64,000 nt of DNA from Xanthobacteraceae bacterium (GTDB taxonomy: Bacteria > Pseudomonadota > Alphaproteobacteria > Rhizobiales > Xanthobacteraceae): assembly GCA_030041005.1 (NCBI GenBank), contig JASHOR010000043.1, positions 1 to 64,000 on the forward strand, given 5' to 3'. The position numbers and the translations under genes were made by a program. This document shows, piece after piece, positions 39,164 to 58,435 of the stretch. The number at the start of each line of letters is the position of its first letter. Position 1 is the first letter of the stretch. The notes beneath the pieces were generated by a model. The model had not been told where the DNA came from and did no database searches. It saw only the letters and a list, made by a program, of their open reading frames with translations.

Positions 39164-39946
39164 TTAAGCGCCGCGACTATCTGCCGACGGGGGCGGCGCG
39201 ACAATGCGCGTTTCGGTGGCAAAGCCCCAAGCCGGATCGAACCGGTGAATGTGATAGACCGGGCAGGTCTGCATTTGCGCCGGGTACTCGCCTCTGCGCA
39301 GCGTCGTCGCAATGCATTGAACCACGGTTGCGGGAATGCGCCCGACATGACCCGCCGCGGCGCGGTGAACATGGCCGCTGAATACGGCGATCACCCGGCC
39401 TGAGTGCTGCAGCGCCTGGCGCAGTCTCTCCATTGTTTCCGCATCGGTAAAATGCAGCCGGTCGGGACCGACCATGACTTCAAACGGCGGATGGTGGGTG
39501 AACACTGCGATCGGCTTGGCGCCGTCGGCTTCGGTCAGGTCGATCAAACGTTCAACCCGTTCGCGACAAAAGTCGCCCTTGTTGCCGGTCGAAAGCGTGT
39601 CGAGCGCAATCAGCCTGATCGGGAAGCCGTCGATTGCGTAGTCGATAAAATCGGAATCCGGCGCAAGATATCCCGATGCCGAGAACGCTTCACGCAGCCT
39701 CGGCCTGCTGTCCTTGTTGCCGGCAAGGACAAAGACCGGCGCGCGCGCCTTCGCGAGGATGGCCGCGGCGCGCGCGTATTCGTCCGCTCGTCCGTTGTGA
39801 ACGATATCTCCGGTGTGAACGATCACGTCGGGAGGCGGATCGAGCGCGTTGAGATCGGCAATGGTGTGCTCGAAGTCCCGTAGTCGCTGATCGGCGTCGG
39901 GAGAATCGAGCGCGAGGTGCGTGTCTGAGATTTGCGCGATGATCAT
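39164..39946 (-). CDS. Calcineurin-like metallophosphoesterase (CpdA-like)
   Basis: A 260-residue dinuclear-metal phosphodiesterase/phosphatase of the CpdA-like group. Motifs: DTH at 8-10, GDIVHNGR at 46-53, GNKD at 76-79, FTHHPPFE near 149-156 and GHVH at 191-194. Motif III normally reads GNHD; here the histidine, which assists catalysis, is lysine, so activity may be altered. The gene is 10 bases downstream of sat and is the last of the apr-sat group on the same strand. In that setting it could clear a nucleotide by-product such as APS or PAP-like molecules, but this is speculation; a general cAMP or nucleotide phosphodiesterase is equally possible. Confidence 0.85.
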   Translation of the reverse strand: MIIAQISDTHLALDSPDADQRLRDFEHTIADLNALDPPPDVIVHTGDIVHNGRADEYARAAAILAKARAPVFVLAGNKDSRPRLREAFSASGYLAPDSDFIDYAIDGFPIRLIALDTLSTGNKGDFCRERVERLIDLTEADGAKPIAVFTHHPPFEVMVGPDRLHFTDAETMERLRQALQHSGRVIAVFSGHVHRAAAGHVGRIPATVVQCIATTLRRGEYPAQMQTCPVYHIHRFDPAWGFATETRIVAPPPSADSRGA

Positions 39947-39956
39947 GGGGCTGAAC

Positions 39957-41138
39957 TTAGGCCTTCGCGAGCAGGCCCGCGTAATACTCCCTGAGGATTG
40001 CTACCACCTCCGGCCGGCTGAACTCGGGAGGGATTTCCGCGCCGGTGGAGAGCATTTCGCGCTGTTGCGTGCCGGAGATCGAAATTTGATATTTCGGATC
40101 GTGGGGGCACGTTTTCGCCGTCGCCATGCCGTAGCATTTCCGGCAGTAGAAGGTGACGTCGATCTTCAGCGGCTGGGTGACCAGAGCGCCGGGCCACAAC
40201 TGGTCGAAGATGCGCTGCGAATCGAATGGGCCGTAGTAGCTGCCGACGCCGGCGTGGTCGCGGCCGACGACGAGGTGCGAGCAGCCGAAGTTCTGGCGGA
40301 TGAGGGCGTGCAGGAGCGCCTCGCGCGGGCCGGCGTAGCGCATCTCGATCGGGTAGCCCGCCTGAATGACCGTTCCCGGACGGAAATAATTGTCGATCAT
40401 CGCCTGGATGGCGCGGGTGCGCACCTCGGCGGGAATATCGCCCGCCTTCAATTTTCCCAGCACCTGATGGATGAAGACGCCGTCCGATACCTCGACCGCG
40501 ATCTTCGCCAAGTATTCATGGCTGCGGTGCATCGGATTGCGGGTCTGGAAAGCGGTGACCTTTGACCAGCCCCGTTCGAGGAACATGGCCCGCGCCTCGG
40601 CGGGTCGGATGTAGAGCTGCGGATATTTGGCGGGATACTCGCCTTCGCTCAATGCCGCGACCGGTCCGGCGAGATTGATTTCGCCCTGCGCCAGGACTTT
40701 CGCCACGCCCGGATGCTTCGGATCGGTGGTGCGATAGACGTGCTCGGACTCGAGCCGCTTGTCGATTGAATATTTCTCGCGAACCGCCATGGTGGCGAGT
40801 ATTTCATTGCTCTGCGCATCGACCAGCGCGATCTCCTGTTCGGCGCCGATGCCGTCGGCAAGGTCCTTGCTCACCGACAGCGTGATCGGGATCGGCCAGA
40901 ACACGCCGCCGTCAAGCTTCATGTCGAGGCACGTCCCGCGCCAGTCGTCATGCCCAATGAAACCATCGAGCGGCGTATAGGCGCCCATCGCCAGCATGAA
41001 GACGTCGGAGACCGCACGCGAGTCGAGCGGAATCTTCTTGAGCTTCTCCGCCCGTTTGCGTTCCTCGGCCCGCTCCGACTGCGGCAGCAGGCGCGGCTTG
41101 ACCGACTCCGAGCCGTGCGGAGGTACGAGATGCGGCAT
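39957..41138 (-). CDS. sat: Sulfate adenylyltransferase (ATP sulfurylase), dissimilatory type
   Basis: A 393-residue homo-oligomeric ATP sulfurylase. The substrate motif QTRNPMHRSHEYL is at 198-210 and GRDHAG at 292-297; the C-terminal half has a Cys cluster (FYCRKCYGMATAKTC) typical of dissimilatory Sat. In sulfur oxidisers it runs backwards: APS plus pyrophosphate gives sulfate plus ATP. It is not the CysDN type used for assimilation, and no APS kinase domain is attached. It is downstream of aprM-aprB-aprA and three small genes on the same strand, only 6 bases from the preceding one, so an operon is very likely. This makes sulfite oxidation, not sulfate activation, its probable task here. 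Confidence 0.95.
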   Translation of the reverse strand: MPHLVPPHGSESVKPRLLPQSERAEERKRAEKLKKIPLDSRAVSDVFMLAMGAYTPLDGFIGHDDWRGTCLDMKLDGGVFWPIPITLSVSKDLADGIGAEQEIALVDAQSNEILATMAVREKYSIDKRLESEHVYRTTDPKHPGVAKVLAQGEINLAGPVAALSEGEYPAKYPQLYIRPAEARAMFLERGWSKVTAFQTRNPMHRSHEYLAKIAVEVSDGVFIHQVLGKLKAGDIPAEVRTRAIQAMIDNYFRPGTVIQAGYPIEMRYAGPREALLHALIRQNFGCSHLVVGRDHAGVGSYYGPFDSQRIFDQLWPGALVTQPLKIDVTFYCRKCYGMATAKTCPHDPKYQISISGTQQREMLSTGAEIPPEFSRPEVVAILREYYAGLLAKA

Positions 41139-41144
41139 GGCGGT

Positions 41145-41303
41145 CTACGGCCGTTTCGGAGTCTGGTATTCAACTTCCTTCTGGAACGGCTCCCAGACGG
41201 TTTCGAAACCGACAAATCCCTTTTCGTTTGCCGGTTTCTGACGCGTCGTCAGAAAGCGCGTGTGGCCGTCGGGAACTTGGGTGATGGGTTTTTGCTCGCT
41301 CAT
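41145..41303 (-). CDS. Small hypothetical protein in apr-sat operon, 52 aa
   Basis: A frame of 52 residues from ATG 41303 (AAGGTG about 5 bases upstream): a polar protein with GHTRFLTTRQKPANEKGFVG in the middle and WEPFQKEVEYQTPKRP at the end. An earlier ATG at 41342 overlaps the stop of the FKBP-like gene (ATGA) and would give 65 residues. I do not recognise it. Its position six bases before sat and the tight packing of the operon make it likely to be a real gene; a role in supporting Sat or Apr assembly is only a guess. Confidence 0.6.
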   Translation of the reverse strand: MSEQKPITQVPDGHTRFLTTRQKPANEKGFVGFETVWEPFQKEVEYQTPKRP

Positions 41304-41338
41304 AAAGTCACCTTCTGCATTGAAGCTGGGCTTGTCAT

Positions 41339-41848
41339 TCAAACGGGCCGCATGAGTGATGGGTCGATAGCCGCCTGGGCGCCGATCGCTCCGCCTGCTC
41401 TTGCTTCCTCATCGGTCGGTTCGCGTACAGTCACGATCTCGAGCGTAAAGACGACCTCTCTGCCGCAAAGCGGATTGTTGCCGTCGACCGTCAGCGTCTT
41501 GTCGTCGGCCCTCGTCACCAGAAAGCTGCGGGTCTGGCCCTTGTCGTTCTCCATGAGGATGGAAGTGCCGACCTTCCGGTATTCCTCGGGAACGTTCTCG
41601 ATGTCATCCGTAAAAACCAGGGACTCGTCTCTGGCGCCGAAGATCCGATTGCCGTCGATCGGCACCTCGATGATCTCGCCTGCGGATCTGCCCTCCAGTT
41701 GCATGTGCACGAAAGGGGCCAGAATCTCATTGTGTCCGTGAACATAGCCCAGCGGAAATTCGACCATGGTGAGGACATTCCCCGACTTCTTGTCGGTCAC
41801 CTTGTAGGTGAGTTCGACATATTTGCCGTCGTGGATGGTTTCGTTCAT
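41339..41848 (-). CDS. SlyD/FKBP-type peptidyl-prolyl isomerase
   Basis: A 169-residue SlyD-like FKBP. The N-terminal FKBP strand is YVELTYKVTDKKSGNVL, followed by FPLGYVHGHNEILAPFV where FKBPs have the GxGxxxPxxE segment, an insert-in-flap domain in the middle, and the closing VDGNNPLCGREVVFTLEIV that matches the DGNHPLAG motif of SlyD. It lacks the His/Cys-rich metal tail of E. coli SlyD. It sits between an unknown gene and the 52-residue gene in the apr-sat operon, suggesting a folding helper for the flavo-iron-sulfur enzyme or its partners. Confidence 0.82.
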   Translation of the reverse strand: MNETIHDGKYVELTYKVTDKKSGNVLTMVEFPLGYVHGHNEILAPFVHMQLEGRSAGEIIEVPIDGNRIFGARDESLVFTDDIENVPEEYRKVGTSILMENDKGQTRSFLVTRADDKTLTVDGNNPLCGREVVFTLEIVTVREPTDEEARAGGAIGAQAAIDPSLMRPV

Positions 41849-41864: not shown

Positions 41865-42272
41865 TCAGAAGATGGACGCGCCGAAAATCTTTATCTTTCC
41901 ATCCTCATAGCCGAGGACGAGCCGGCCAAGCCATTCACCGTTCCTTTTGGTGCTGCGTTGCCGGTAGAGAACCGTCACATGCTCGCCTCGGCGGATAATG
42001 CCGAGATAGTCGGCGTCTTCGGACAGATTCCTGGCAAGCTCGCTGTTGGCGAATTGGTGGCCAACCGTAACCTGATCCATGGCAAGCGCCATGGAACTGG
42101 AGAAATTCTTCACGAACTCTCCGTACTTGCCTTCGTTCGAATTCTTGATGAGATCGCGCCACAGAGGCTCGGCTATGGTCCGTATCTCTTCGTCGGTTTG
42201 TTCAACAATGTTCACGCGTAGTTCTCTGGGCTCGTGAAAGACCGGACTTGCAGAGTGCATCGACAGCGACAT
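41865..42272 (-). CDS. Conserved hypothetical protein in apr operon, 135 aa
   Basis: A 135-residue cytoplasmic-looking protein without membrane segments: EIRTIAEPLWRDLIKNSNEG, then YGEFVKNFSSSMALAMDQV, RNLSEDADYLGIIRRGEHVTVLYRQRS and EWLGRLVLGYEDGKIKIFGASIF. The helix-then-sheet order ending in a strand pair resembles small alpha+beta (NTF2-like) domains, but I cannot assign a family. It is 59 bases downstream of aprA and 16 bases upstream of the FKBP-like gene. An accessory part in AprBA maturation or regulation is plausible by position only. Confidence 0.65.
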   Translation of the reverse strand: MSLSMHSASPVFHEPRELRVNIVEQTDEEIRTIAEPLWRDLIKNSNEGKYGEFVKNFSSSMALAMDQVTVGHQFANSELARNLSEDADYLGIIRRGEHVTVLYRQRSTKRNGEWLGRLVLGYEDGKIKIFGASIF

Positions 42273-42331: not shown

Positions 42332-44200
42332 TTACTCGTTCGCCCCAGCCAGATGGTAACAGGGCGCCTTTTCCATGGTGTATTCGCCGGTCTTCGGATC
42401 GCGGCGCGAAACAGTCAGCACGTGCCAGTTTGCGTCGTCCACCTTCATGGCGTCGCCGCGGTAGTAGTAGCCCGGCCACCGAGTCTCCTTGCGAAACAGC
42501 GTGTGCTGCGTGACGCACTCTGCGGCGCGATGTCGGTGCTTGAGTTCCCACGCGCGCAGCAACTCGTGAATATCCTTGGCGCCCAGGCTCTCGAGATCTT
42601 CCTCCATGACCTTGAGTTTCTTGAGTGCGATATTCAGGAGCTTATCGTTTGTCATGTAGCTGACCGTCACGCCGCCGCAATATTCGTCCATGAGCTTCTG
42701 CAGACGATCCAAGCCCTGCTTGGGATTGATGTAGTGCGGGTTGACGTCGCCGGCCACGATCTCATTGCGGTAGATCTTGTAGTGCTCCAGCGGCTTGTAG
42801 ATCTCCTTCTTGCGGCGGTTGATCTGCTCGTCGGATACGACGATGCCTTCGGCCTTGCCGTCATCGATATATTTACAGGCAGCCTTCGCCGCGAGACGGC
42901 CCTCGGTGAACGAGCCGGATGAAAAGGCGTGCGGCGTGCCCCCGACCGCGTCGCCGGCGCCGAACAGACCTTCGACCGTCGTCATGCGGTTGTAGCCCCA
43001 GAAATACTCGGGCGGCGAAACGTCCTCGGGACCCGAGCACCAGGCGCCCGAGCACGTCGCATGCGAGCCCATGACGTAGGGCTCCGATGTCGTCAGTTCG
43101 GGGTTCTCGTTCTTCGGGTCCACGTCGGTCGAAGCCCAGAGGACGGCCTGGCCGATGGTCATGCCGAGGAAGTTTTCCCAGCCGACTTCTTCCAGATGAG
43201 GATCCTGGAAGGCCTTCATGGTCACCATGTGAATGGGACCGCGGCCTGCATTCACTTCACTGATTATGCAATGGTTGCGCAGACAGGTCGGGATCGGCCT
43301 ATGGGTCAAGTGCGACGCTTCCGGATCCAGGTATTCCTTTCCGACCATTTTCTGAAGTTCGGGGAACCACTTGGATTCATACTCCTCGCCCAGACAATTC
43401 TGCGTGTAAGTCTTCAGGTGCAGGAAGTAGGCACCGACCGGACCGTAGCCGTCCTTGAAACGCGCCAACACGATGCGGTTTTCCATCTGAGTCATCTTGG
43501 CGCCGGCTTCGATCATGAGCCCATAGGCAGACGCTGACGACCATGGCGCATACCAGGTACGTCCGGAACCTTCGCCCACCGAACGCGGCTTGAAGATATT
43601 GGAGGCGCCTCCCGCGCCGCAGATCACGGCCTTGGACTTGAAGACGTGATAGTTGCCTGTGCGCACATTGAAGCCGACTGCGCCGGCAACCCGGTTCTGC
43701 TTGCTCTCATCCATCAGCAGGTGAGTGACGCAGATGCGATTGAACACCTTGTCGGCGGATTTCTTGGCGGCCTCGGCCACGATGGGCTTGTAGGACTCGC
43801 CATGAATCATGATCTGCCATCGCCCCTCACGCAGATAGCGCCCGGTCTTCGGGTCGCGCATGATGGGCAGGCCCCACTCTTCGAATTGGTGCACCGTGGA
43901 GTCGACGTGACGGGCCATGTCGAACAGCAAGTCTTCGCGCACCAGCCCCATCAGATCGATACGAGCGTAGCGGACATGGTCCTCCGGATTATTCTCACCC
44001 CATCGGGTCCCCATGTAGCAGTTGATGGCGTAAAGGCCTTGGGCGACCGCGCCGGAGCGATCGATATTTGCCTTCTCGGCAATAACGATCTTCTTGTTCT
44101 GACCCCAGAATCTGGCCTCCCAGGCAGCGCCGCTGCCGCCGAGGCCTGAGCCGACGACCAGGATATCGATGCTGTCCTCGACGATTGTTTTGTAGGCCAT
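42332..44200 (-). CDS. aprA: Adenylylsulfate (APS) reductase, alpha subunit
   Basis: A 622-residue FAD-containing subunit of the fumarate-reductase/succinate-dehydrogenase superfamily. The FAD dinucleotide motif is ILVVGSGLGGSGAAWEARFW; other family blocks are IDRSGAVAQGLYAINCYMG, GEGSGRTWYAPWSSASAYGL, RPIPTCLRNHCIISEVNAGRGP, GSHATCSGAWCSGPEDVSPPE and GLFGAGDAVGGTPHAFSSGSF. With AprB it interconverts sulfite plus AMP and APS. It overlaps the aprB stop by one base (TGATG). No dsr genes occur here and the setting contains Xsc, so the likely direction is sulfite oxidation, as in phototrophic and chemotrophic sulfur oxidisers and SAR11-type bacteria. Confidence 0.97.
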   Translation of the reverse strand: MAYKTIVEDSIDILVVGSGLGGSGAAWEARFWGQNKKIVIAEKANIDRSGAVAQGLYAINCYMGTRWGENNPEDHVRYARIDLMGLVREDLLFDMARHVDSTVHQFEEWGLPIMRDPKTGRYLREGRWQIMIHGESYKPIVAEAAKKSADKVFNRICVTHLLMDESKQNRVAGAVGFNVRTGNYHVFKSKAVICGAGGASNIFKPRSVGEGSGRTWYAPWSSASAYGLMIEAGAKMTQMENRIVLARFKDGYGPVGAYFLHLKTYTQNCLGEEYESKWFPELQKMVGKEYLDPEASHLTHRPIPTCLRNHCIISEVNAGRGPIHMVTMKAFQDPHLEEVGWENFLGMTIGQAVLWASTDVDPKNENPELTTSEPYVMGSHATCSGAWCSGPEDVSPPEYFWGYNRMTTVEGLFGAGDAVGGTPHAFSSGSFTEGRLAAKAACKYIDDGKAEGIVVSDEQINRRKKEIYKPLEHYKIYRNEIVAGDVNPHYINPKQGLDRLQKLMDEYCGGVTVSYMTNDKLLNIALKKLKVMEEDLESLGAKDIHELLRAWELKHRHRAAECVTQHTLFRKETRWPGYYYRGDAMKVDDANWHVLTVSRRDPKTGEYTMEKAPCYHLAGANE

Positions 44201-44679
44201 CAGTAATACACGCCTTTCTTCATCGTGAGGCCGGCCGACTGGAGCGTACGCAAATCGCCGTCATCCATGCGGATCCACTTTGGCTCATTGTACAGCAACT
44301 GGCTGTCGCGCATTTCTTTGCTCGGAGGGGGAACGTCGGCGAGCTTCGGGATCGCCGTTCCCCAAGGCTTGGTCGTGATCGGCGACAGGAAATTCTTTTC
44401 CGTGCCGTTGCGATATTTGATCTTCCAGGCGATCGTGCCTTTCTCTTCGTCACGGATGACGCGAACGCTGTGACCGAGTGGGGCGAAGTCGGCATATCCG
44501 CGCACGTCGATCGCATTCTGCGGGCAAGCCTTGACGCAGGAGTAGCACTCCCAGCACATGCTCGGCTCGATGTTGTAGGCGCGACGATAAGTCTGATCGA
44601 TGTGCATGATGTCAGAGGGACAGATGTCGACACAATGTCCGCATCCGTCGCACCTTGTCATGTAGACAAAGGTTGGCAT
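44200..44679 (-). CDS. aprB: APS reductase, beta (iron-sulfur) subunit
   Basis: A 159-residue ferredoxin-like subunit with two [4Fe-4S] motifs: C10-x2-C13-x2-C16-x3-C20 (RCDGCGHCVDIC) and C42-x2-C45-x2-C48-x3-C52 (MCWECYSCVKAC). After the second cluster come the AprB-specific tail segments LGHSVRVIRDEEKGTIAWKIKYRNG and FLSPITTKPWGT, which wrap around AprA. It passes electrons between AprA and the membrane partner AprM. It lies 45 bases after aprM and overlaps aprA by a base. Confidence 0.97.
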   Translation of the reverse strand: MPTFVYMTRCDGCGHCVDICPSDIMHIDQTYRRAYNIEPSMCWECYSCVKACPQNAIDVRGYADFAPLGHSVRVIRDEEKGTIAWKIKYRNGTEKNFLSPITTKPWGTAIPKLADVPPPSKEMRDSQLLYNEPKWIRMDDGDLRTLQSAGLTMKKGVYY

Positions 44680-44724: not shown

Positions 44725-45567
44725 CTAATAGTGGCGCGGCGCTTCGCGTTTGATGCCAAGTCCCATTCGCATTGGAGCTTTTTGCAAGAGCTCCATGGAA
44801 TGTCGTTTCCGTTGTTCGGGATCGTCACGAGTCAGCGTCGGCAAATTCTGGGCTGAACCATTGGCCTTCGATACGCGTTTCTCGAATGCCGCGGCCGGCT
44901 TGAAAAACATGTGCGAGAACTTCGACCACGGGATCGACACGAACAGCGCCGTGGTGGCGAGGAGATAGAGTCCCAGGAACACATCGGCTGCGATCGTGTT
45001 GCCGGCGGTCTGCAGCCAAGCCCAGATCAGCGCGAGCGTGGCGCCCGCCACCAGGAGCAGGATGAACATGTCGGCGCGCACGATGCGTAATATCGCGTTG
45101 CCTTCAGCCGCGACGTCGACCCGGATGAAAAACCAGAACCAGTAGCCGCCGGCGCAGATCATCAGCGCGCCGATGTACCAAAGCGTCGCCAGATACGCAG
45201 GACCCGGATCGGCCGGCGTCGGGTAAGCGAAGACCATGATGACGGTGGTCACGACGTAGATCAGAAAGCCGTACATTCCGAGGAGATGGGAAATTCTGCG
45301 GCGCACGTTGCAAAACTCGCCGGACGCCATGACGTCGACTACGGCGGTTTGCACTGCGATGGCGATCATCTCGCCGCCGCCGACCTGATGCTCGGCCTTC
45401 TTGCCGGAGTCGCGCCAGTTGTCGAAAAAATACTTGGCGCTTTTCTTATGTATCGTGTCGAGGAGCGTGCCGCCCGCGACCAGAACGATCATGACGATAA
45501 CGTAGGCCTGCATGAGCACGACGGGGACGGCCCCCGAAAGCTCGGCGAAAGGATTGGTCGTGAACAT
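44725..45567 (-). CDS. aprM: AprM-like membrane anchor of APS reductase
   Basis: A 280-residue membrane protein with about six hydrophobic segments (VVLMQAYVIVMIVLVAGGTLL, LLGMYGFLIYVVTTVIMVFAY, YLATLWYIGALMICAGGYWFWF, MFILLLVAGATLALIWAWL, VFLGLYLLATTALFVSI). The conserved FxxxR-type cytoplasmic loops and the tail FSHMFFKPAAAFEKRVSKANG are like AprM proteins that replace QmoABC in many sulfur oxidisers and link AprBA to the quinone pool. Histidines facing the membrane (SHLLGMYG, SHMFF) could hold heme. It is the first gene of the operon, 177 bases from the divergent LysR gene. Confidence 0.85.
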   Translation of the reverse strand: MFTTNPFAELSGAVPVVLMQAYVIVMIVLVAGGTLLDTIHKKSAKYFFDNWRDSGKKAEHQVGGGEMIAIAVQTAVVDVMASGEFCNVRRRISHLLGMYGFLIYVVTTVIMVFAYPTPADPGPAYLATLWYIGALMICAGGYWFWFFIRVDVAAEGNAILRIVRADMFILLLVAGATLALIWAWLQTAGNTIAADVFLGLYLLATTALFVSIPWSKFSHMFFKPAAAFEKRVSKANGSAQNLPTLTRDDPEQRKRHSMELLQKAPMRMGLGIKREAPRHY

Positions 45568-45744: not shown

Positions 45745-46755
45745 ATGACGCTTGATCAACTGCGCGTCTTCATTGAGGTCGCCGAACGCGGACATGTGAC
45801 GCGCGCGGCCGAATCGCTGGGTATGAGCCAGTCGGCGGCGTCGGCCGCCGTCGCGGCGCTGGAAAGCAGTTATCAGATCAGGTTGTTCGATCGCGTCGGC
45901 CGCGGCATTCAACTCACCGAGACCGGTCGCATTTTCCTGCGCGAGGCGCACGCGGTGCTCGATCGCGCTTCGATGGCTCGTTCGGTGCTGCAGGATCTCG
46001 CCGGTTATCCGGCCGGCCCGGTCGCCATCGCCGCCAGCCAGACGATCGCCACCTACTGGCTGCCCCGCCGGCTGGCGTCGTTTCACGCCGCCAATCCGCG
46101 GGTGCGGCTTAACGTCGTGATCCGCAATACGCACGACGTCGAGAATGCGGTCGTCGAAGGCGAAGCCAATGTCGGTCTGGTGGAGGGCCCGACTCAGCAT
46201 CCGGCGCTGTTGCGTCAACTCATCGATCATGATCGCCTCGTGCTTGTGGTCGCTCCCGATCAACCGCCGGTACCGGTCACCGCCTCGGGGCGAATCGATC
46301 TTCGCGCCATCACCTGGGTGGTCCGCGAGGCTGGTTCGGGCACCCGCCATGGGCTTGAGGATTTGGCTCGCCGTCACGGCCTTTCGCTCGAGGACCTCAA
46401 CGTCTCGCTGGTGTTGCCGAGCAACGAGGCCGTACGCGAGGCGATCGAAGCCGGCGCCGGCGCCACCGTCATCTCGCGCCACGTCGTCGCCTCCGCGATC
46501 GCCGCCGGTACGCTCACCGCGATTCCGGTTGAATTGCCGCCGCGCGAATACGCGCTGCTTCGCCACCGCGACCGCCACGAGATCCCGGCACAGCAGGCTC
46601 TCGTGGTTCACTTGACGGGCGGCGTGGATCGGCAATCGGATTTATTTGAGACACCGTCGCAGGCGAAGGCCTCGCCCGCGCCGGCGGCCAAGGCGCAACC
46701 GAACCGGGCTGCAGGCGCGCTTGGTCAAGCGGGTTCGAGCGGCCGGCGAAGGTAA
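45745..46755 (+). CDS. LysR-family transcriptional regulator
   Basis: A 336-residue LysR-type regulator. The N-terminal helix-turn-helix is MTLDQLRVFIEVAERGHVTRAAESLGMSQSAASAAVAALE; the effector domain follows from about residue 90 (AGYPAGPVAIAASQTIATYWLPRRLASF ... VRLNVVIRNTHDVENAVVEG). The last 40 residues are Ala/Arg-rich and not part of the family. It is divergent from aprM with a candidate operator between, so it probably senses a sulfur metabolite (sulfite, APS or similar) or a sulfonate intermediate and activates aprMBA-sat. ATG 45745 starts the domain. Confidence 0.9.
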   Translation: MTLDQLRVFIEVAERGHVTRAAESLGMSQSAASAAVAALESSYQIRLFDRVGRGIQLTETGRIFLREAHAVLDRASMARSVLQDLAGYPAGPVAIAASQTIATYWLPRRLASFHAANPRVRLNVVIRNTHDVENAVVEGEANVGLVEGPTQHPALLRQLIDHDRLVLVVAPDQPPVPVTASGRIDLRAITWVVREAGSGTRHGLEDLARRHGLSLEDLNVSLVLPSNEAVREAIEAGAGATVISRHVVASAIAAGTLTAIPVELPPREYALLRHRDRHEIPAQQALVVHLTGGVDRQSDLFETPSQAKASPAPAAKAQPNRAAGALGQAGSSGRRR

Positions 46756-50688: not shown

Positions 50689-50698
50689 GGAACTCGCC

Positions 50699-52249
50699 GT
50701 GATTCTCACCAACCTTGCGCACGGCTTTTTGGAGATTTTTCAGCCGTTCGACCTGCTCATGCTCTTTGTCGGGCTCCTGGTCGGCATGGCGGTTTCGATC
50801 ATGCCGGGGCTCGGCCTGGTCATGGGCGTGGTGCTGGCATTGCCGTTCACCTATCAGATGCCGATCGAGCCGTCGGTGATCCTGCTCACCGCGATCTACT
50901 TCTCCGGTACCTATGCCGGCTGTTTCACCGCCATCCTCTACCGCATCCCCGGCGAGCCGATGGACGTGCCGATGCTGTGGGACGGCTACACCATGGCGGC
51001 GCGCGGCGCGCCGGCCAAGGCGCTCGGCTGGGCGCTGGTCGCCGCGCTGATCGGCGGCCTCGTTTCGTCCGCGGTCATGGTCGCGCTCGCCGAACCGATG
51101 AGCGCAGTCGCGCTCAAATTCGATTCACGCGATTATTTTGCCGCGGTGTTTTTCGGTTTGACCACGGTGGTGGCGCTGGCCGGAAAGTCGATGGTCAATT
51201 CGTTGATCAGCCTGTGCGTTGGCTTGCTGGTCGCCACCGTCGGCATCGACAGCATCTACGGCATTCCCAGGTTCACCTTCGGCGTTCCGGTCCTGCGCGA
51301 CGGCATCCAGTTGGTCGAGGTTCTGGTCGGGATGTACGGCCTCAGCGAGGTGCTGGCGCGCATCGGGCAGGGCCTTCGCGTCGACAGGCTCGATACCACA
51401 TCGCGGCACGTTGCCACGCAGTTTCCCAAACTGCGGGAGATGCTGGGCATAAAGGCCACGCTGTTCCGCAGCACGGTGCTCGGCACGCTCCTCGGCATCG
51501 TGCCGGGTGCCGGCGCCACCATCACCGCGTTCATCTCCTACGGCGTCGAGAAGCAATACGGCCGGCGCCGGCAGCTCCTCGGCACCGGCGTGCCCGAAGG
51601 GATCGTGGCGCCGCAAATCGGGGCTACCGCTTCGGTCGCCGGCCACATGGTTCCGCTGTTGACCCTGGGTCTTCCCGGCAGCGGCGCGACCGCGGTCATC
51701 CTCGCCGCGTTTTTGCTGCACGGCGTGCAGCCGGGCCCGATGCTGCTCGAGGATCCGGCCTCGACCCTTCTGGTCTACACCATTCTCGCGTCGATGTTCG
51801 CCAGCGTCATCGGCATGTGCCTGTTGGGCTTCTTTTGGATCAGGGTGGTCATCAAGGTCCTGACCGTGCCGCAAGGCGTGCTGTCGGCGATCGTGGTGAT
51901 GTTTTGCCTGGTCGGCGCCTATGCCAACCGCAACAACATGTCGGACGTGTGGATGATCGTGATCTTCGGCGTGCTCGGCTATCTGTTCGAGAAATTCAAG
52001 TTTCCAATCTCTCCCATGGTGCTCGGGGCGATCCTCGGGCCGATCGGCGAGACCGCCTTCATGCGCACCATGATCGGCAGCAACAACGATTGGACCGTGT
52101 TCTTCACCGGGCCGATCAGCGGCACGCTGATGGGCGCGTCCGTGCTGGCGTTGAGCTATCCGCTGGTGCGTGAGCTGTTTTCGATGCGGCGGCGGGCTCA
52201 GGCGATGGCGGCGGTAGGCAAAGCGGTCAAGGTGAGCGATGCGCGGTAA
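50699..52249 (+). CDS. tctA: Tripartite tricarboxylate transporter large permease TctA
   Basis: A 516-residue, about 12-helix permease of the TctA family. The signature loops are SIMPGLGLVMGVVLALPFTY, FSGTYAGCFTAILYRIPGEP and, in the second half, GIVPGAGATITAFISYGVEK and PLLTLGLPGSGATAVILAAFLLHGVQPGP. It moves the ligand delivered by TctC, probably with Na+ or H+. It starts at GTG 50699, ten bases after tctB, and overlaps the iclR start. Confidence 0.95.
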   Translation: MILTNLAHGFLEIFQPFDLLMLFVGLLVGMAVSIMPGLGLVMGVVLALPFTYQMPIEPSVILLTAIYFSGTYAGCFTAILYRIPGEPMDVPMLWDGYTMAARGAPAKALGWALVAALIGGLVSSAVMVALAEPMSAVALKFDSRDYFAAVFFGLTTVVALAGKSMVNSLISLCVGLLVATVGIDSIYGIPRFTFGVPVLRDGIQLVEVLVGMYGLSEVLARIGQGLRVDRLDTTSRHVATQFPKLREMLGIKATLFRSTVLGTLLGIVPGAGATITAFISYGVEKQYGRRRQLLGTGVPEGIVAPQIGATASVAGHMVPLLTLGLPGSGATAVILAAFLLHGVQPGPMLLEDPASTLLVYTILASMFASVIGMCLLGFFWIRVVIKVLTVPQGVLSAIVVMFCLVGAYANRNNMSDVWMIVIFGVLGYLFEKFKFPISPMVLGAILGPIGETAFMRTMIGSNNDWTVFFTGPISGTLMGASVLALSYPLVRELFSMRRRAQAMAAVGKAVKVSDAR

Positions 52250-53117
52250 TATCGATCCTGGCGTTACGTCTGCGGCGCGACCCGCGACTGCGGTCCGGCG
52301 CGCGGGCCCCGATGCGGGGAAGGCCGTCGCGCCCGCGGCCGAGCGGGCTATTCGTCCGCACAGGCTTGGCGCCACCGCGCGCTCGTTTGCTATTCTCGAC
52401 CACGTCGCCGCCGCGCAGCGCCCGGTCGACGTGCTCGATATCGTCGGCGCGCTGAAGCTGCCGAAGGCGACCGCCTACCGTCTGGTCGATTGGTTCGTCG
52501 ATCACGGTTATCTGGTGCGCGAACCGGCGCGCAAGCGGCTGATCGTCGGCCCGAGGCTGACCAAGCTCGCGTTCGGCGTGCTGGCGGCATCGATGAGCAA
52601 CGACGTGCCGCATCTCGTCCTGCATCGTCTCGTGCACGCGCTCGACGAGACCTGCAATATCGGCACGCTGCTCAACGGCGAGGTGGTCTATCTTGACCGC
52701 GTCGAGGCCGAGCACTGGCCGCTGCGGCTGCACTACAGGATCGGCTCGCGCGTGCCCCTGCACTGCAGCGCCATCGGCAAGCTCCTGCTCGCGCTCGCGC
52801 CGGCGCCGCGGCGACGGCGGCTGATGCAGAGCCTCGAACTGCGCCGCTTCACCGACAACACCATCGCCGACCGCAGCCGTCTGGACGGCGAGCTCAAGCA
52901 AATCCGCAAGGATCAAGTCTCGTTCGACCGCGAAGAATATCTCGCCGGCGTGGTCTGCATGGCCGTGCCGATCTTCGGTCGCAACGGCGAGACGCTGGCC
53001 GCGCTCGCGGTGCAGGCGCCGGAGGCGCGAATGAACGTTCGCACCGCGCAGGCGCATCTGCCGGCCATGCGGCGCGCGGCCGCGGAACTCGCGGGGATTT
53101 ATCAGGATCAGACATGA
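52239..53117 (+). CDS. IclR-family transcriptional regulator
   Basis: A 292-residue IclR-type regulator. After a 45-residue Pro/Arg/Ala-rich lead, the winged helix is ARSFAILDHVAAAQRPVDVLDIVGALKLPKATAYRLVDWFVDHGYL; the ligand-binding domain includes TCNIGTLLNGEVVYLDRVE, GSRVPLHCSAIGKLLLA and YLAGVVCMAVPIF. It starts within the last codons of tctA (overlap 11 bases) and precedes xsc by 64 bases, so it is inside the same transcript. It probably responds to the sulfonate substrate or an early intermediate and acts at the palindrome upstream of tctC. Confidence 0.92.
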   Translation: MRGNIDPGVTSAARPATAVRRAGPDAGKAVAPAAERAIRPHRLGATARSFAILDHVAAAQRPVDVLDIVGALKLPKATAYRLVDWFVDHGYLVREPARKRLIVGPRLTKLAFGVLAASMSNDVPHLVLHRLVHALDETCNIGTLLNGEVVYLDRVEAEHWPLRLHYRIGSRVPLHCSAIGKLLLALAPAPRRRRLMQSLELRRFTDNTIADRSRLDGELKQIRKDQVSFDREEYLAGVVCMAVPIFGRNGETLAALAVQAPEARMNVRTAQAHLPAMRRAAAELAGIYQDQT

Positions 53118-53181
53118 CCGCCGCGGCCGCGGCAATTGCAATCGCGACCGCGCAATGGAATGACCGAAAAAGGAGAACGCC

Positions 53182-54957
53182 ATGAAGATGACGACGGAAG
53201 AAGCCTTTGTGAAAGTCCTGCAGATGCACGGCATCGAGCATGTGTTCGGCATCATCGGATCGGCCTTCATGCCGATTTCCGATCTTTTCCCCGCCGCCGG
53301 CATTACCTTCTGGGACGTTGCGCACGAGGGCAACGGCGGCATTGTTTGCGACGGCTATACGCGCTCGACCGGCAAGATGGCGATGGTGACCGCGCAAAAC
53401 GGGCCGGGCATCACCAATCTCGTCACCCCGGTCAAGACCGCCTACTGGAACCACACGCCGATGCTGCTTCTCACCCCGCAGGCGGCAAACAGGACGATCG
53501 GCCAGGGAGGCTTCCAGGAAGTCGAACAAATGGCGCTGTTCCGCGACATGGTCGGCTATCAGGAAGAAGTGCGCGATCCGGTGCGGATTGCCGAAGTGCT
53601 CAATCGGGTGATTACCAAGGCCAAGCGCCTGTCGGCGCCGGCGCAGATCAACGTGCCGCGCGATCTGTGGACCCAGGTGATCGACATCGAGCTGCCGGCG
53701 ATCGTGGATTTCGAGCGCCCTGCAGGCGGCGCCAATGCCGTGGCCGAGGCGGCGAAGCTCTTGTCATCGGCGAAGTTCCCGGTGATCCTGTCCGGCGCCG
53801 GTGTGGTGCTGGGCGGCGCCATCCCCGAATGCATCGCGCTGGCGGAGCGGTTGGACGCGCCGGTCTGCAGCAACTATCAGCACAACGACAGCTTTCCCGG
53901 CAGCCACCGGCTGGCGCTCGGCCCGCTCGGCTACAACGGGTCGAAGGCGGCCATGGAGATCGTGGCCAAGGCCGACGCGGTGTTGGCGCTTGGCACGCGG
54001 CTCAATCCGTTCTCGACGCTTCCCGGCTATGGCATCGACTACTGGCCGAAGAACGCCAAGATCATTCAGGTCGATATCAATGCCGACCGGATCGGTCTGA
54101 CCAAGCCGGTCGCCGTCGGCATTTGCGGCGACGCCAAGCTCGTCGCCAAGGCCATTCTGGCGCAGTTGGCGCCCACGGCGGGCGACGCCGGCCGCGATGA
54201 GCGCAAGGCGCTGGTCCATACCGCCAAATCGCGCTGGCTGCAGGCGCTCTCCAGCATGGATCACGAGGAGGACGATTCCGGCACGACCTGGAATGCGGAC
54301 GCGCAGAAGCGCGACCCCGACCGGATGACGCCGCGGCAGGCCTGGCGGGCGATCCAGGCGGGCCTGCCGAAGGACGCCATCATTTCCAGCGACATCGGCA
54401 ACAATTGCGCGATCGGTAACGCCTATCCGACCTTTGAAAAGGGTCGCAAATATCTGGCGCCGGGCCTGTTCGGGCCGTGCGGCTATGGCTTTCCCGCGAT
54501 CATCGGCGCCAAGATCGGCAATCCGGATACCCCCTGCGTCGGCTTTGCCGGCGACGGCGCGTTCGGCATTTCGATGAATGAGATGAGTTCGATCGGCCGC
54601 GAGCAGTGGCCGGGCATCACCATGGTGGTGTTCCACAACTATCAATGGGGCGCCGAGAAACGCAATTCGATCCTGTGGTTCGACGACAATTTCGTCGGCA
54701 CCGAACTCGATCCGAAACTCAGCTTCGCCAAGATGGCCGAGGGCTGCGGCCTCAAGGGCGTGACGGTGCGCACGCCCTCCGCGTTGACCGAGGCGCTGCG
54801 CAGGTCCTGCGACGAGCAGAAGAATGGCGTTACCACCTTCATCGAGGTGCTGCTCAATCAGGAGCTCGGCGAACCGTTCCGCCGCGACGCCATGAAGAAG
54901 CCGGTCCGCGTGGCGGGCATCCGCCGCGAAGACATGCGCGCCCAGCGGGTCGCCTAG
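53182..54957 (+). CDS. xsc: Sulfoacetaldehyde acetyltransferase
   Basis: A 591-residue thiamine-diphosphate enzyme. It converts sulfoacetaldehyde and phosphate to acetyl phosphate and sulfite, the desulfonating step of taurine, isethionate and sulfoacetate breakdown. The N terminus MKMTTEEAFVKVLQMHGIEH and blocks FGIIGSAFMPISDLFP, AYWNHTPMLLLTPQAANRTIGQGGFQEVEQM and NVPRDLWTQVIDIELPAI are those of Xsc rather than acetolactate synthase or oxalyl-CoA decarboxylase. The catalytic glutamate is E49; the ThDP-Mg motif is GDG (457-459) to N486. The strong ribosome site AAAAAGGAG precedes ATG 53182. It begins the enzyme part of the operon with the aldehyde dehydrogenase 27 bases downstream. Confidence 0.96.
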   Translation: MKMTTEEAFVKVLQMHGIEHVFGIIGSAFMPISDLFPAAGITFWDVAHEGNGGIVCDGYTRSTGKMAMVTAQNGPGITNLVTPVKTAYWNHTPMLLLTPQAANRTIGQGGFQEVEQMALFRDMVGYQEEVRDPVRIAEVLNRVITKAKRLSAPAQINVPRDLWTQVIDIELPAIVDFERPAGGANAVAEAAKLLSSAKFPVILSGAGVVLGGAIPECIALAERLDAPVCSNYQHNDSFPGSHRLALGPLGYNGSKAAMEIVAKADAVLALGTRLNPFSTLPGYGIDYWPKNAKIIQVDINADRIGLTKPVAVGICGDAKLVAKAILAQLAPTAGDAGRDERKALVHTAKSRWLQALSSMDHEEDDSGTTWNADAQKRDPDRMTPRQAWRAIQAGLPKDAIISSDIGNNCAIGNAYPTFEKGRKYLAPGLFGPCGYGFPAIIGAKIGNPDTPCVGFAGDGAFGISMNEMSSIGREQWPGITMVVFHNYQWGAEKRNSILWFDDNFVGTELDPKLSFAKMAEGCGLKGVTVRTPSALTEALRRSCDEQKNGVTTFIEVLLNQELGEPFRRDAMKKPVRVAGIRREDMRAQRVA

Positions 54958-54984
54958 GGCAAACGGGAAGGCAGATGAAGGCAG

Positions 54985-56415
54985 ATGTCGATGACCGTGG
55001 CAATGAAGGCGCCGGCCGGCAGCAGCGAGAAGGCGATCGTTGACGATCTGGTGCGGCGCGCGCGAGCGGCGATGGCGGTGTTCGCGGAGGCCGACCAGGC
55101 GCGCACCGACGAGGCGGTGACCGCGCTCGCGTGGTCGCTCTACAATCCGGACCACGCCAGGGAGCTCGCCGCGCTCGCCGTCGCCGATACCAAGCTCGGC
55201 AACGTCCCCGACAAGATCGTCAAGAAGCAGCGCAAGACCTTCGGGACCCTGCGCGACCTTCTCCGCGTCAAGTCAGTCGGCGTCATTGAAGACGATCCGG
55301 CGCGCGGCATCGTCAAATATGCCAAGCCGGTCGGTGTCGTGTGCGCCATCACGCCGTCGACCAATCCCGGCGCCACCCCGGTCAACAAGGCGATGATGGC
55401 CATCAAGGGCCGCAACGCCATTATCATCGCGGCGTCGCCGGCGGGCCTGCGCACGACGTCGCGCGCCGTCGATCACATGCGCGCGGAGCTGAAGAAGATC
55501 GGCCTGCCGGAAGATCTCGTGCAAATCCTGCCGCCGCCGGCCTCCAAGGACATGACGCAGGCGCTGATGCAGGCCGCCGATCTCGTGGTCGCCACCGGCT
55601 CGCAGGACAACGTCCGGCGCGCCTATTCGAGCGGCACGCCGGCGATCGGCGTCGGCACCGGCAACGTGCCGGTGATCATCGACGAAACCGCCGATCTCGA
55701 TGACGCGGCGAAAAAGATTTGCGCCTCGAAAATCTTCGATAACGCGACCTCGTGCTCTTCGGAAAACTCCGTGATCGTCGTCGAGGCGGTCTACGAGGCC
55801 GCACTTGCGGCGCTGGAACGCGTCGGCGGCTATCGCGCCTCGGCGATCGAGAAGGAGCGTATTGAGCGCGCGCTATGGCCCGACGGCCACTTGAGCCGCA
55901 GCTTGATCGCGCGCGACGCCGATGTGTTCGCGCGCGGCTGCGGCCTGCCGGCCGCGGCGGAAAGCAAGAAGTTTTTCATGGTCGAGGAGACCGACATCGG
56001 CCGGGATTATCCGTTCTCCGGCGAGAAACTGTCGCTCGTGCTCACGGTTTACCGGGCGACGAATTTCGACAACGCGATCGAGCGGGCCAACGCCATCCTG
56101 GCGCATCAGGGCCGCGGCCATTCGGTCGGCCTGCACACCAAGGCGATGGACCGGGGGCGAACGCTGGCGGAGCGCGCCGACGTCGTGCGCGTGCTGGTCA
56201 ATCAGGCGCACACCTTCGGCAATGGCGGCGGCTTCGATAACGGCCTGAACTTCACGCTGAGCATGGGGTGCGGCACCTGGGGCGGCAACAGCATTACCGA
56301 GAACCTGAACTACAAGCACTTCCTCAATATCACCCACCTCGTCACCACCATCCCCGAAGACAAGCCGAGCGAGGAAGCGCTGTTCGGCACGTACTGGGCA
56401 AAGTACGGCAAATAG
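54985..56415 (+). CDS. sauS: CoA-acylating sulfoacetaldehyde dehydrogenase
   Basis: A 476-residue acylating aldehyde dehydrogenase of the EutE/SucD/SauS group. The catalytic cysteine is C257 in FDNATSCSSENSVIV; nucleotide and fold blocks are VGVVCAITPSTNPGATPVNKA, VVATGSQDNVRRAYSSGTPAIGVGTGNVPV and, near the end, QAHTFGNGGGFDNGLNFTLSMGCGTWGGNS. Between xsc and an acid:CoA ligase the expected reaction is sulfoacetyl-CoA plus NAD(P)H to sulfoacetaldehyde, as SauS does in Cupriavidus necator sulfoacetate degradation. The sequence does not by itself exclude other acyl-CoA substrates. The start at 54985 has GGGAAGGCAG-like purines upstream; an ATG at 54975 is in another frame. Confidence 0.85.
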   Translation: MSMTVAMKAPAGSSEKAIVDDLVRRARAAMAVFAEADQARTDEAVTALAWSLYNPDHARELAALAVADTKLGNVPDKIVKKQRKTFGTLRDLLRVKSVGVIEDDPARGIVKYAKPVGVVCAITPSTNPGATPVNKAMMAIKGRNAIIIAASPAGLRTTSRAVDHMRAELKKIGLPEDLVQILPPPASKDMTQALMQAADLVVATGSQDNVRRAYSSGTPAIGVGTGNVPVIIDETADLDDAAKKICASKIFDNATSCSSENSVIVVEAVYEAALAALERVGGYRASAIEKERIERALWPDGHLSRSLIARDADVFARGCGLPAAAESKKFFMVEETDIGRDYPFSGEKLSLVLTVYRATNFDNAIERANAILAHQGRGHSVGLHTKAMDRGRTLAERADVVRVLVNQAHTFGNGGGFDNGLNFTLSMGCGTWGGNSITENLNYKHFLNITHLVTTIPEDKPSEEALFGTYWAKYGK

Positions 56416-56432
56416 CGGCAGGCGGGGTCGTC

Positions 56433-57560
56433 ATGAATTTCGAGGAATACGCGGCGAAGTCGCTGGTGCTGGCGCCGGCCGGGATCGCGATACCGCGCGG
56501 CGTTCTCTGCCGCACGGCTGCGGAGGCGGCGCAAGTTGCAGCGGAGATCGGGCCCTGCGTGGTCAAGGCGCAGGTCCCCACGGGAAAGCGCGGCAAAGCC
56601 GGCGGCATCAGGCTTGCGAATACGCCGCAGCAAGCGGCGCAGGTCGCCGCTCAGATACTCGGCATGCGGATCGGCGATTATGTCGTCGAACGCCTTCTGG
56701 TCGAGGAGCAGGCGAAGATCGTGCGCGAGTTCTATGCCGCCGTGCTGCACGATACGGCGGCGTGCCAGCCGCTGATCTTGTTCTCCACCGAAGGCGGCAT
56801 GGATATCGAGGAGATCGCCGCCGCCAAGCCGCAGGCCATTCGGCGGCTCAATGTCGCCATCGACGGCAAGCCGCAAGCGCAGGACATCGCCGGCATGCTC
56901 GCCGGCCTCGCGCTTGGCGCGGCCGAAGCGCAAGTTGCCGGCACTCTGGAGAAACTTTACCGCGCCTATCGCTCGCGCGACGCCGAACTCGTCGAAATCA
57001 ATCCGCTGGCGCAACTCGCCGATGGTCGCGTCGTGGCGCTGGACTGCAAATTCACGCTCGACGATGCCGCCGTCTTCCGCCAGCAGGAGATTGCCGGCAG
57101 CGCCGGCGCCGAAGCGATGACCGCGCTGGAGCGGCGCGGCGCTCAGAACGGTCTCAAGTTCATCCAGCTCGACGGCAATGTCGGCGTGCTCGCCAACGGC
57201 GCCGGCCTGACCATGACCACGATGGACGTGATCCGGCACTTCGGCGGCCGGCCGGCGAATTTTCTCGAGATCGGCGGCGAGGCCTACACCAAATCGGAGA
57301 TTGCGCTCGATCTGGTGCTGTCCAATGCCGGGGTGAAGAGCCTGGTGATCAACTTCTGCGGCGCTTATGCGCGCACCGACGTGATGGCCGACGGCGTGGT
57401 CAAGGCCTGGCACAAGCTCAAGCCGAAGGTGCCGGTGTTCTTCTCGATCCATGGCACCGGCGAAACCGAGGCGGTGGCGCTGGTGCGCTCAGAACTCGGC
57501 ATCGAGCCGTACGATTTCATGGAAGACGCCGTCGCCGCGGCGGTCAAGGCAGCGCAATGA
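56433..57560 (+). CDS. Succinyl-CoA-synthetase beta-like subunit (sulfoacetate-CoA ligase candidate)
   Basis: A 375-residue ATP-grasp subunit resembling SucC. It opens MNFEEYAAKSLVLAPAGIAIPRG and has the grasp segment VVKAQVPTGKRGKAGGIRLA, the Mg-binding VEINPLAQLADGRVVALDCKFTLDD and the C-terminal flavodoxin-like CoA-ligase part GNVGVLANGAGLTMTTMDVI ... PANFLEIGGEA. The nucleotide specificity loop cannot be read with certainty. It is not linked to TCA genes; it follows the acylating aldehyde dehydrogenase by 17 bases and overlaps the alpha gene. Together the two would form acyl-CoA with ATP hydrolysed to ADP and phosphate. Sulfoacetate is the natural substrate in this context. ADP-forming sulfoacetate-CoA ligases of this type (SqwKL) are, as I recall, known from a variant of transketolase sulfoglycolysis. 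Confidence 0.8.
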   Translation: MNFEEYAAKSLVLAPAGIAIPRGVLCRTAAEAAQVAAEIGPCVVKAQVPTGKRGKAGGIRLANTPQQAAQVAAQILGMRIGDYVVERLLVEEQAKIVREFYAAVLHDTAACQPLILFSTEGGMDIEEIAAAKPQAIRRLNVAIDGKPQAQDIAGMLAGLALGAAEAQVAGTLEKLYRAYRSRDAELVEINPLAQLADGRVVALDCKFTLDDAAVFRQQEIAGSAGAEAMTALERRGAQNGLKFIQLDGNVGVLANGAGLTMTTMDVIRHFGGRPANFLEIGGEAYTKSEIALDLVLSNAGVKSLVINFCGAYARTDVMADGVVKAWHKLKPKVPVFFSIHGTGETEAVALVRSELGIEPYDFMEDAVAAAVKAAQ

Positions 57561-58435
57561 TCGTTCGCAAGGAAGACAAAGTCATCGTGCTCGGCATGAC
57601 CGGCAAGCAAGGCACTTTCTGGACCGAGAAAATGCAGGCCTATGGCACCAACGTGGTGGCCGGGATCCATCCCAAACGGGCCGGCGAGACCGCGCTCGGC
57701 GTGCCGGTCTTCGCTTCGACAGCGGAGGCGGTGAGCAAGGTCGGCGGCGATGTCGCCGTGATGTTCATTCCGCCTTCGGCGGCGCGCGAGGCAGCGGTCT
57801 CCGCGGCGGCGGCCGGCGTCAAGCTTCTGGTGGTGCTGACCGAGCACATTCCGGCGCAGGACGTGATGGCGATCCACGCCGCCGCCGCGCGATGCGGAAC
57901 GCGCATCGTCGGACCCAACACTGCGGGCCTGGTGACGCCCGGCGAATGCTTCGTCGGCATCATGCCGGCATTCGTTCCAAGCGTGTTCAAGCCCGGCTCG
58001 GTCGGCGTTATCTCGCGCAGCGGCAGCCTCGGCACGCTCGTCTGCCTGAACCTGACCCGCGCCGGCATCGGCCAGTCCGCCTTCGTCGGCATCGGCGGCG
58101 ATCCGATGCTCGGCACCACCACGCTTGATGCCTTGCGTGCGCTCGACCGGGACGAGGGGACCGAGGCGATCGTCATCGTCGGCGAGATCGGCGGAGCAAT
58201 GGAAGAGGCGGCGGCGCGCCACGCAGCGGCCATGAAAAAGCCGGTGGTCGCCTTCATTGCCGGGCGCGCCTCACCGCCGGGCAAGAAAATGGGTCACGCC
58301 GGGGCGATCGTCACCACGCAGGCCGGCAGCTATGCGGGCAAGCGCAAGGCGCTGGAAGATGCCGGGGTCCTCGTCGTGGATACGCCGCGCCAGATACCCG
58401 AAGCCCTGGCCATCACGCGAAATACTTCTCGATGA
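57557..58435 (+). CDS. Succinyl-CoA-synthetase alpha-like subunit (sulfoacetate-CoA ligase candidate)
   Basis: A 292-residue SucD-like subunit. The CoA-binding domain opens [22 protein letters not shown]; then [23 protein letters not shown]; the phosphorylated histidine is H247 in [12 protein letters not shown], matching the active-site His of E. coli SucD. At the point where SucD has the NCPG motif for succinate/phosphohistidine contacts this protein has VGPNTAGLV, so the acid-binding pocket differs from true succinyl-CoA synthetase. It overlaps the beta gene by four bases (ATGA). The 3' end overlaps the convergent dapE gene by 23 bases. No terminator is evident between them. Confidence 0.82.

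Follow-up and report, generated by a model that had tools for sequence, protein, structure and literature searches.

The window analyzed here is a 64,000-nucleotide stretch of DNA from a Xanthobacteraceae bacterium (Alphaproteobacteria; GenBank assembly GCA_030041005.1, contig JASHOR010000043.1, positions 1–64,000 of the forward strand). At positions 39164–58435 it holds a gene island in which predicted genes for sulfoacetate breakdown adjoin predicted genes for sulfite oxidation by an adenosine 5'-phosphosulfate (APS) reductase and ATP sulfurylase (Table 1). The plus-strand operon tctC-tctB-tctA-iclR-xsc-sauS-sauC-sauD, with gaps of -11 to +64 bp, is the strand-uniform array at 49163–58435 that a preliminary description of this DNA had recognized. 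On the minus strand, the genes aprM-aprB-aprA-u135-FKBP-u65-sat-phosphoesterase are spaced by -4 to 59 bp, and a LysR-type gene diverges from aprM at 180 bp. The bridge between the operons consists of pta (minus) and a citrate synthase gene (plus), 55 bp apart with the chosen starts, and 151 bp separate the end of the latter from tctC. All genes named in the preliminary description are present, but its layout needs amending: pta and the citrate synthase gene do precede the tct array, pta being on the strand opposite to tct-sauD; aprMBA-sat with its LysR gene does adjoin it, with u135, FKBP-like and u65 genes between sat and aprA that had been omitted; and the first gene in the range is a calcineurin-like phosphoesterase gene. 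The source assembly, labeled G000 below, has a size of 4.91 Mb in 188 contigs and is 95% complete and 3.6% contaminated; the window sequence is free of N.

Xsc, SauS, AprA, AprB, Sat and Pta all exceed curated cut-offs, and chance resemblance of the island enzymes is excluded because the scores lie so far above them. SauS matches the curated model of the acylating sulfoacetaldehyde dehydrogenase, and the cysteine motif reported earlier for this protein is found in its translation, with the catalytic Cys in FDNATSCSSENS; Xsc matches the curated equivalog model TIGR03457. Both members of the SucC/SucD-like pair, in contrast, fall below the succinyl-CoA-ligase cut-offs. Two SucC-type genes were found in G000 at E 1e-40 or better, one with 543 bits to TIGR01016 on contig C180 and the island gene with 312 bits, which rules out the island pair as the genome's only succinyl-CoA synthetase. 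Six island-type SauC sequences (window, G004, G033, G349, G054, and G038) were aligned with four SucC sequences (E. coli, G000, G033, and G004; that of G349 was left out). A loop that reads NIFGGI(V/M)(R/K)CD in 4/4 SucC, at a position we take to bind the succinate carboxylate, reads NFCGA(F/Y)AR(T/C)D in 6/6 SauC, and LDVGG of SucC is replaced by LEIGG in the same alignment. SauD keeps GHAGAI, presumably the phosphohistidine motif, and an ADP-forming mechanism is therefore expected. Judged by these sequence features, SauCD is a two-subunit ligase of the succinyl-CoA-synthetase type that is distinct from SucCD, with sulfoacetate as the predicted substrate. TctC, TctB, and TctA are encoded inside the sau operon, as in a SauXYZ-type carrier, and sulfoacetate is the candidate substrate here as well. 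Matches to sauC and/or sauD also lie beside sauS in G004, G033, G038, G045 (sauC), G054, G182, G245, G286, and G349.

On the other side of the island, AprA residues 10–614 align with the solved enzymes 2fja and 1jnr (5e-193), which we take to be those of Archaeoglobus, and the alignment contains the stretches AIN, TWYA, WQIMIHGES, RFKDGYGPVGA, and GSH, presumably belonging to the active site. The AprB and AprA models are both matched and aprM precedes aprBA, which is the lineage-I sulfur-oxidizer type. No Qmo-type gene is among the open reading frames (ORFs) scanned at the locus, a genome-wide qmo search not having been made. For lineage-I APS reductases, qmo is described as absent and AprM has been proposed as the membrane anchor (PMC2211403; here and below, papers are cited for excerpts of their text).

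For comparison of gene order we used the 80 best AprA matches among named genome contigs, all at least 86% identical and thus a set biased to one group; 75 of these loci have room upstream, 66 have at least 3 kb downstream, and 42 reach at least 9 kb on both sides. We found aprM in 75/75 loci with room upstream and, downstream, u135 in 66/66, FKBP in 66/66, and u65 in 61/66 (within 8 kb after aprA, on the same strand in 50 loci and on the other in 11). In the presumed SAR11-type genomes G267 and G357, u135 is kept (47%) and no FKBP match lies beside apr; in G349, whose AprA is 68% identical, neither u135 nor FKBP was matched beside aprA. A structure model of u135, built from 35 sequences (the window's and 34 of the 85 found, as some u135 ORFs came out truncated), has four helices and four strands at a predicted local distance difference test score (pLDDT) of 82.7. 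NTF2- and cystatin-like folds figure in its best PDB matches, together with other folds; the best E is 3.4e-3, none is at or below 0.001, and TM-scores reach 0.60. With low confidence, we suggest that u135, the FKBP-like protein, and u65 might be assembly or stabilizing factors of AprBA; among the matches listed in the open-licence PMC literature, no publication contained both aprM and FKBP. A metallophosphoesterase gene also directly follows sat in G004, G033, and G010 and in 4/80 named loci (L050, L052, L060, and L081), and any role for it in AMP or APS turnover is a guess.

The closest AprA among the named contigs, at 97%, is that of a Pseudolabrys metagenome-assembled genome (MAG), and the DNA likely derives from a Pseudolabrys-like alphaproteobacterium. 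The next, at 92–95%, come from MAGs assigned by name mostly to Burkholderiales or Betaproteobacteria and in one case to Phyllobacteriaceae (95%), and apart from Pseudolabrys and Phyllobacteriaceae most named Hyphomicrobiales-type MAGs stand at 87–91%. The apr operon has likely been exchanged laterally.

Table 1. Predicted genes of the island, in order of position in the window. Scores are in bits, with curated cut-offs in parentheses; the starts of lysR, pta, tctB, and sauC were chosen within longer ORFs.
Feature	Position	Strand	Evidence
Calcineurin-like metallophosphoesterase	39164..39946	-	Pfam Metallophos 65; 10 bp after sat
sat, ATP sulfurylase	39957..41138	-	NF003166 494 (387); TIGR00339 386
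u65, small conserved protein without family	41145..41342	-	No Pfam match
FKBP/SlyD-like protein	41339..41848	-	NF008008 64 (below 174); PDB SlyD 6e-17
u135, conserved protein without family, predicted NTF2-like fold	41865..42272	-	No Pfam/NCBIfam family above threshold
aprA, APS reductase flavoprotein subunit	42332..44200	-	TIGR02061 1083 (642); PDB 2fja 5e-193
aprB, APS reductase iron-sulfur subunit	44200..44679	-	TIGR02060 208 (136); APS-reductase_C 117
aprM, putative membrane partner of lineage-I APS reductase	44725..45567	-	Position before aprBA; weak QmoC/TcuB similarity, far under cut-offs
LysR-type regulator, divergent from aprM	45748..46755	+	Pfam HTH_1, LysR_substrate
pta, phosphate acetyltransferase	46833..47810	-	PF01515 354; TIGR00651 319 (311)
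Citrate synthase (type II / 2-methylcitrate synthase group)	47866..49011	+	PF00285 400; TIGR01800 418 (just under 421)
TctC-type binding protein, candidate sulfoacetate receptor	49163..50131	+	PF03401 83
TctB-type small membrane subunit	50128..50688	+	PF07331 61; start chosen, ORF opens at 50077
TctA-type large membrane subunit	50699..52249	+	PF01970 430
IclR-type regulator	52239..53117	+	PF01614, PF09339
xsc, sulfoacetaldehyde acetyltransferase	53182..54957	+	TIGR03457 938 (676)
sauS, CoA-acylating sulfoacetaldehyde dehydrogenase	54985..56415	+	NF047625 790 (600)
sauC-type ligase beta subunit	56427..57560	+	ATP-grasp_2, Ligase_CoA; TIGR01016 312
sauD-type ligase alpha subunit, GHAGAI motif	57563..58435	+	CoA_binding, Ligase_CoA; TIGR01019 325 (under 353)

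The flanks of the island look ordinary: to the left lie a gene of the Fur family and genes of fatty-acid synthesis, and to the right genes for an M20 peptidase and tetrahydrodipicolinate succinyltransferase. A scan of 45400–49400 returned no promoter-like site (0.6 expected) and four terminator-like sites (3.0 expected).

Taken together, the genes probably encode the complete oxidation of imported sulfoacetate, with sulfite carried on to sulfate by AprBA and Sat. Sulfoacetate would be taken up by TctCBA in the role of SauXYZ, activated to sulfoacetyl-CoA by an ADP-forming SauCD, and reduced to sulfoacetaldehyde by SauS. Xsc would then use phosphate to convert sulfoacetaldehyde to acetyl phosphate and sulfite. 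Pta would turn the former into acetyl-CoA, which citrate synthase would feed into the tricarboxylic acid cycle; AprBA would join sulfite to AMP, forming APS and passing electrons via AprM towards the quinone pool; and Sat would convert APS and pyrophosphate to ATP and sulfate. We infer the substrate, the direction of transport, the flux, the electron route through AprM, and the use by AprBA of sulfite from Xsc, starting from the observed protein families, operons, neighborhood, and gene order. The preliminary description had proposed this route in outline; the families, the operon structure, and an order that recurs in relatives back its assignment of the genes, and its overall interpretation is supported in part.

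Other outlets for sulfite were sought in G000. At 95% completeness, the genome gave no match to a DmsC-type SoeC (PF04976), and its single Mo-co-dimer gene is SoxC, with 548 bits (cut-off 420) compared with 106 bits to SorA (cut-off 600) and 105 bits to SorT (cut-off 570); SoeABC and SorAB/SorT were accordingly rejected as its sulfite outlet. DsrA was not matched in G000 either, which speaks against a lithotrophy linked to reverse Dsr (rDsr). Across nine genomes searched, DsrA exceeded its cut-off in one (G048), with partial matches under the cut-off in G047, and SoxB exceeded its cut-off in six; the three that gave no SoxB match (G033, G038, and G349) have both SauS and AprA.

Parallel loci occur in several relatives. 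The congener G004 has the same two gene orders, lysR-aprMBA-u135-FKBP-u65-sat-phosphoesterase and tctCBA-iclR-xsc-sauSCD, and an ORF with a CxxCH motif, spotted by eye, also lies behind its apr-sat-phosphoesterase operon (L106 14153–16109). G033 carries xsc-tctCBA-sauSCD and apr-sat-phosphoesterase on two contigs. In G349, from another family, one contig carries aprMBA-sat and, farther along, sauSCD-citrate synthase, pta, and xsc; the whole spans about 28 kb, and aprA is 16.8 kb from sauS (L117/L118, G349:C103:35001-71000). A class-III aminotransferase gene and then a di-heme peroxidase gene stand before aprM in this genome, and an ATP-binding cassette (ABC) transporter with an NMT1-type binding protein is encoded beyond xsc; the aminotransferase and this transporter look like a taurine entry. 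In G298, a 9-kb stretch without a sau match holds sat, aprBA of a different type (AprA 49%), xsc, and pta (L114 3145–12102, G298:C30). The union of apr and sulfonate genes therefore recurs with different apr types.

Co-occurrence was counted in two samples, each including the window: 61 genomes of its genus, family, and order (relatives) and 385 genomes of its class. Matches to SauS under the cut-off in the class search (10/34, all in genomes outside the 23 with AprA) were excluded before counting, as were tblastn matches whose query coverage was below one half (below 40% in neighborhood searches). Among the relatives, Xsc exceeded its cut-off in 13 genomes, AprA in 14, and SauS in 9, and AprA was found together with SauS in 7/61 (2.1 expected) and with Xsc in 8/61 (3.0 expected). 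The class sample gave 46, 23, and 24, respectively, with SauS and AprA together in 7/385 (1.4 expected) and Xsc and AprA in 10/385 (2.75 expected). When the window is dropped and kinship ignored, SauS and AprA still coincide in 6/60 relatives (1.7 expected, p 8e-4) and 6/384 class genomes (1.3 expected, p 9e-4), and the values for Xsc and AprA are p 2e-3 and 3e-4. The co-occurrence of SauS and AprA is thus probably real, if not firm.

As for distance, aprA and xsc share a contig in five of the ten class genomes with both, 9.0 kb apart in the window, 1.6 kb in G298, 4.4 kb in G267 and G357 (members of one genus), and 22.7 kb in G349; the remaining five have them on separate contigs. The neighborhood search that had been proposed earlier, for xsc within 15 kb of aprA, succeeded in three of the nine class genomes other than the window (4/10 with it, and about 0.1 expected for the ten by an approximate 2d/genome calculation that takes no account of contig ends). 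Proximity of xsc and aprA is well above chance. As a rule, linkage is rejected, since only 1/8 relatives and 5/10 class genomes with both genes have them on one contig. The combination of xsc with a reverse APS pathway, which had been called unusual, is indeed uncommon, but these counts and a published combined pathway (PMC10356861) temper that judgment.

Several observations weigh against an island that works as one unit. The apr operon has a LysR gene to itself and is also found at loci with no sulfonate genes in the vicinity. G004 carries the two operons on separate contigs, where 6.5 kb of unrelated sequence extends past LysR, and a SoxC gene follows apr-sat-phosphoesterase (L106 14153–16109, G004:C294). 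G000 itself encodes SoxX, Y, Z, A, and B on C35 (L136 5698–10138) and, on another contig, SoxC beside a cytochrome c gene (L130 6705–8670). Among the seven relatives with SauS and AprA, the window alone has both on one contig, and counted by genus in the class sample the pair is found in 3/276 genera (0.9 expected, p 0.056), a weak co-occurrence. A DmsC-type gene, possibly SoeC, is present in 4/7 of these relatives (G033, G042, G047, and G054) and a Mo-co-dimer gene in 6/7, which counts against any general rule of apr instead of Soe. Finally, sauC and sauD were not found beside sauS in 3/13 SauS genomes with a neighborhood retrieved, window included (G042, G047, and G060, the last ending at a contig edge). 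Because of the DmsC-type genes, the Mo-co-dimer genes, and the missing sauCD, we lowered our confidence in the full pathway and raised it in an account with two independent modules that are neighbors by chance, tct-xsc-sauSCD for sulfoacetate and aprMBA-sat as a laterally acquired lithotrophic module with a separate LysR regulator, handling sulfite that derives from sulfide, thiosulfate, or elsewhere. This account, which we consider rather unlikely but serious, would also explain why no xsc lies in the fetched flanks of the 80 named AprA loci, although only 42 of these reach 9 kb on both sides. A divergent LysR gene like that of the island recurs at 70–85% identity in L031, L051, L052, and L106 and at 34% in L048 (5/91 loci with aprM), and the Sox genes, the arrangement in G004, and the identity of AprA to MAGs named Burkholderiales favor independence as well. 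Composition adds a weak hint: from aprM to u65 the G+C content is 0.53–0.59 and the codon-use value 0.50–0.66 (15 other genes of the window average 0.71), with tctB (0.50) and pta (0.60) also low. Separate modules are harder to reconcile with the co-occurrence of AprA with SauS and Xsc, with the 15-kb counts, with SauS and AprA in three genomes lacking a SoxB match, and with the failure to find DsrA in G000. With SoxC, moreover, thiosulfate should be oxidizable without release of sulfite, so the presence of SoxC weakens, without removing, a lithotrophic use of apr-sat; inorganic sulfur oxidation may be the function of AprBA and Sat, either alone or in addition. The earlier statement that both products of Xsc are used inside one locus thus fits the gene content, but is set against the separate LysR gene, the named loci, and the encoded Sox proteins.

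Two further readings concern the sulfoacetate genes themselves. SauS and SauCD could run in reverse, from sulfoacetaldehyde to sulfoacetate with ATP formation, like SqwD-SqwKL of the sulfo-TK route, with Xsc competing for the aldehyde. SqwD/SqwKL are described in that direction (PMC12890257), and ADP-forming ligases are in general reversible, but the island's annotated genes include none for taurine or isethionate entry, a binding-protein-dependent carrier of the tripartite tricarboxylate (TTT) type suggests uptake, and xsc lies between carrier and sauS in one operon; we regard reversal as improbable. We give still less credence to a ligase and dehydrogenase acting on another short acid (e.g., succinate, malonate, or sulfopropionate), in an island that degrades a different sulfonate or none. 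Several acids are indeed substrates of SucCD-like pairs (succinate and malate according to NCBIfam) and the carrier family is broad, yet SauS reaches 790 bits over a cut-off of 600, sauS also lies near xsc in G004, G349, G038, and G245, and the altered loop is common to all six SauC. The complete oxidation of sulfoacetate hence remains the reading we prefer. A more far-reaching version of it, held only tentatively, is that the island wholly mineralizes sulfoacetate with AprBA/Sat, and not a molybdenum sulfite dehydrogenase, as the dedicated sulfite outlet, that the ATP from Sat repays that spent by SauCD, that the two gene sets were brought together separately in two or more families of the class (those of the window and G349), and that an oxidative APS reductase requires u135, the FKBP-like protein, and u65 as partners.

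Some routes that break down taurine or sulfoquinovose end in sulfoacetate (PMC12625764; PMC12890257), and there have been few tests of how its sulfur returns to sulfate. Because such a locus couples desulfonation with energy-conserving oxidation of sulfite, it allows one to test concretely whether oxidative APS reductase, generally read as an indicator of inorganic sulfur oxidation, is an indicator of organosulfur mineralization too; if it is, aprA surveys will need rereading.

Sulfoacetate genes and aprA or apr-sat at one locus are not described in the open-licence PMC literature, among the matches listed, and each half has known counterparts. Genes sauSCD with a TTT carrier (SauXYZ) are reported from Bilophila wadsworthia and from OTU3, a dominant Arctic sponge symbiont (PMC12625764), and the island resembles both in its ADP-forming SauCD, SauS, and tripartite tricarboxylate-type carrier. 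SauCD in Bilophila is treated together with SqwD/SqwKL, the latter in the oxidative direction, and sulfoacetaldehyde there becomes isethionate, which is cleaved by IseG (PMC12890257), whereas the island has xsc in the operon and apr-sat adjoining. OTU3 is reported with xsc, pta, rDsr, and Sox genes, and aprA goes unmentioned in the main text of that paper (PMC12625764). With Cupriavidus necator H16 the island shares the SauS route from sulfoacetate to sulfoacetaldehyde; the ligase SauT and single-gene carrier SauU of its sauST(U) system (as described in PMC12625764) stand in place of SauCD and TctCBA.

For the sulfite half, the closest described case is "Ca. Taurinisymbion ianthellae," in which proteome and sulfate-release evidence supports a path from taurine to sulfate via Xsc and AprBA/Sat, with ATP from sulfite oxidation (PMC10356861). 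Like the island it has Xsc, Pta, AprBA, and Sat; unlike the island it starts from taurine (tauABC, tpa) and has QmoAB-HdrBC in place of AprM, and no sulfoacetate branch is described in the excerpted text. The same paper calls the combination of Xsc with AprBA/Sat infrequent, naming SAR11, an Olavius symbiont, and sponge symbionts, and PMC10947273 describes xsc, aprAB, and sat in a symbiont from the Alphaproteobacteria. The presumed SAR11-type G267 and G357 (1.2–1.3 Mb genomes) likewise have aprMBA and xsc 4.4 kb apart but, unlike the island, gave no sauSCD or sat match in the 20 kb examined of each. Each half is thus known elsewhere, and the novelty lies in their joining at one locus, an uncommon variant for which another family provides at least one parallel (G349).

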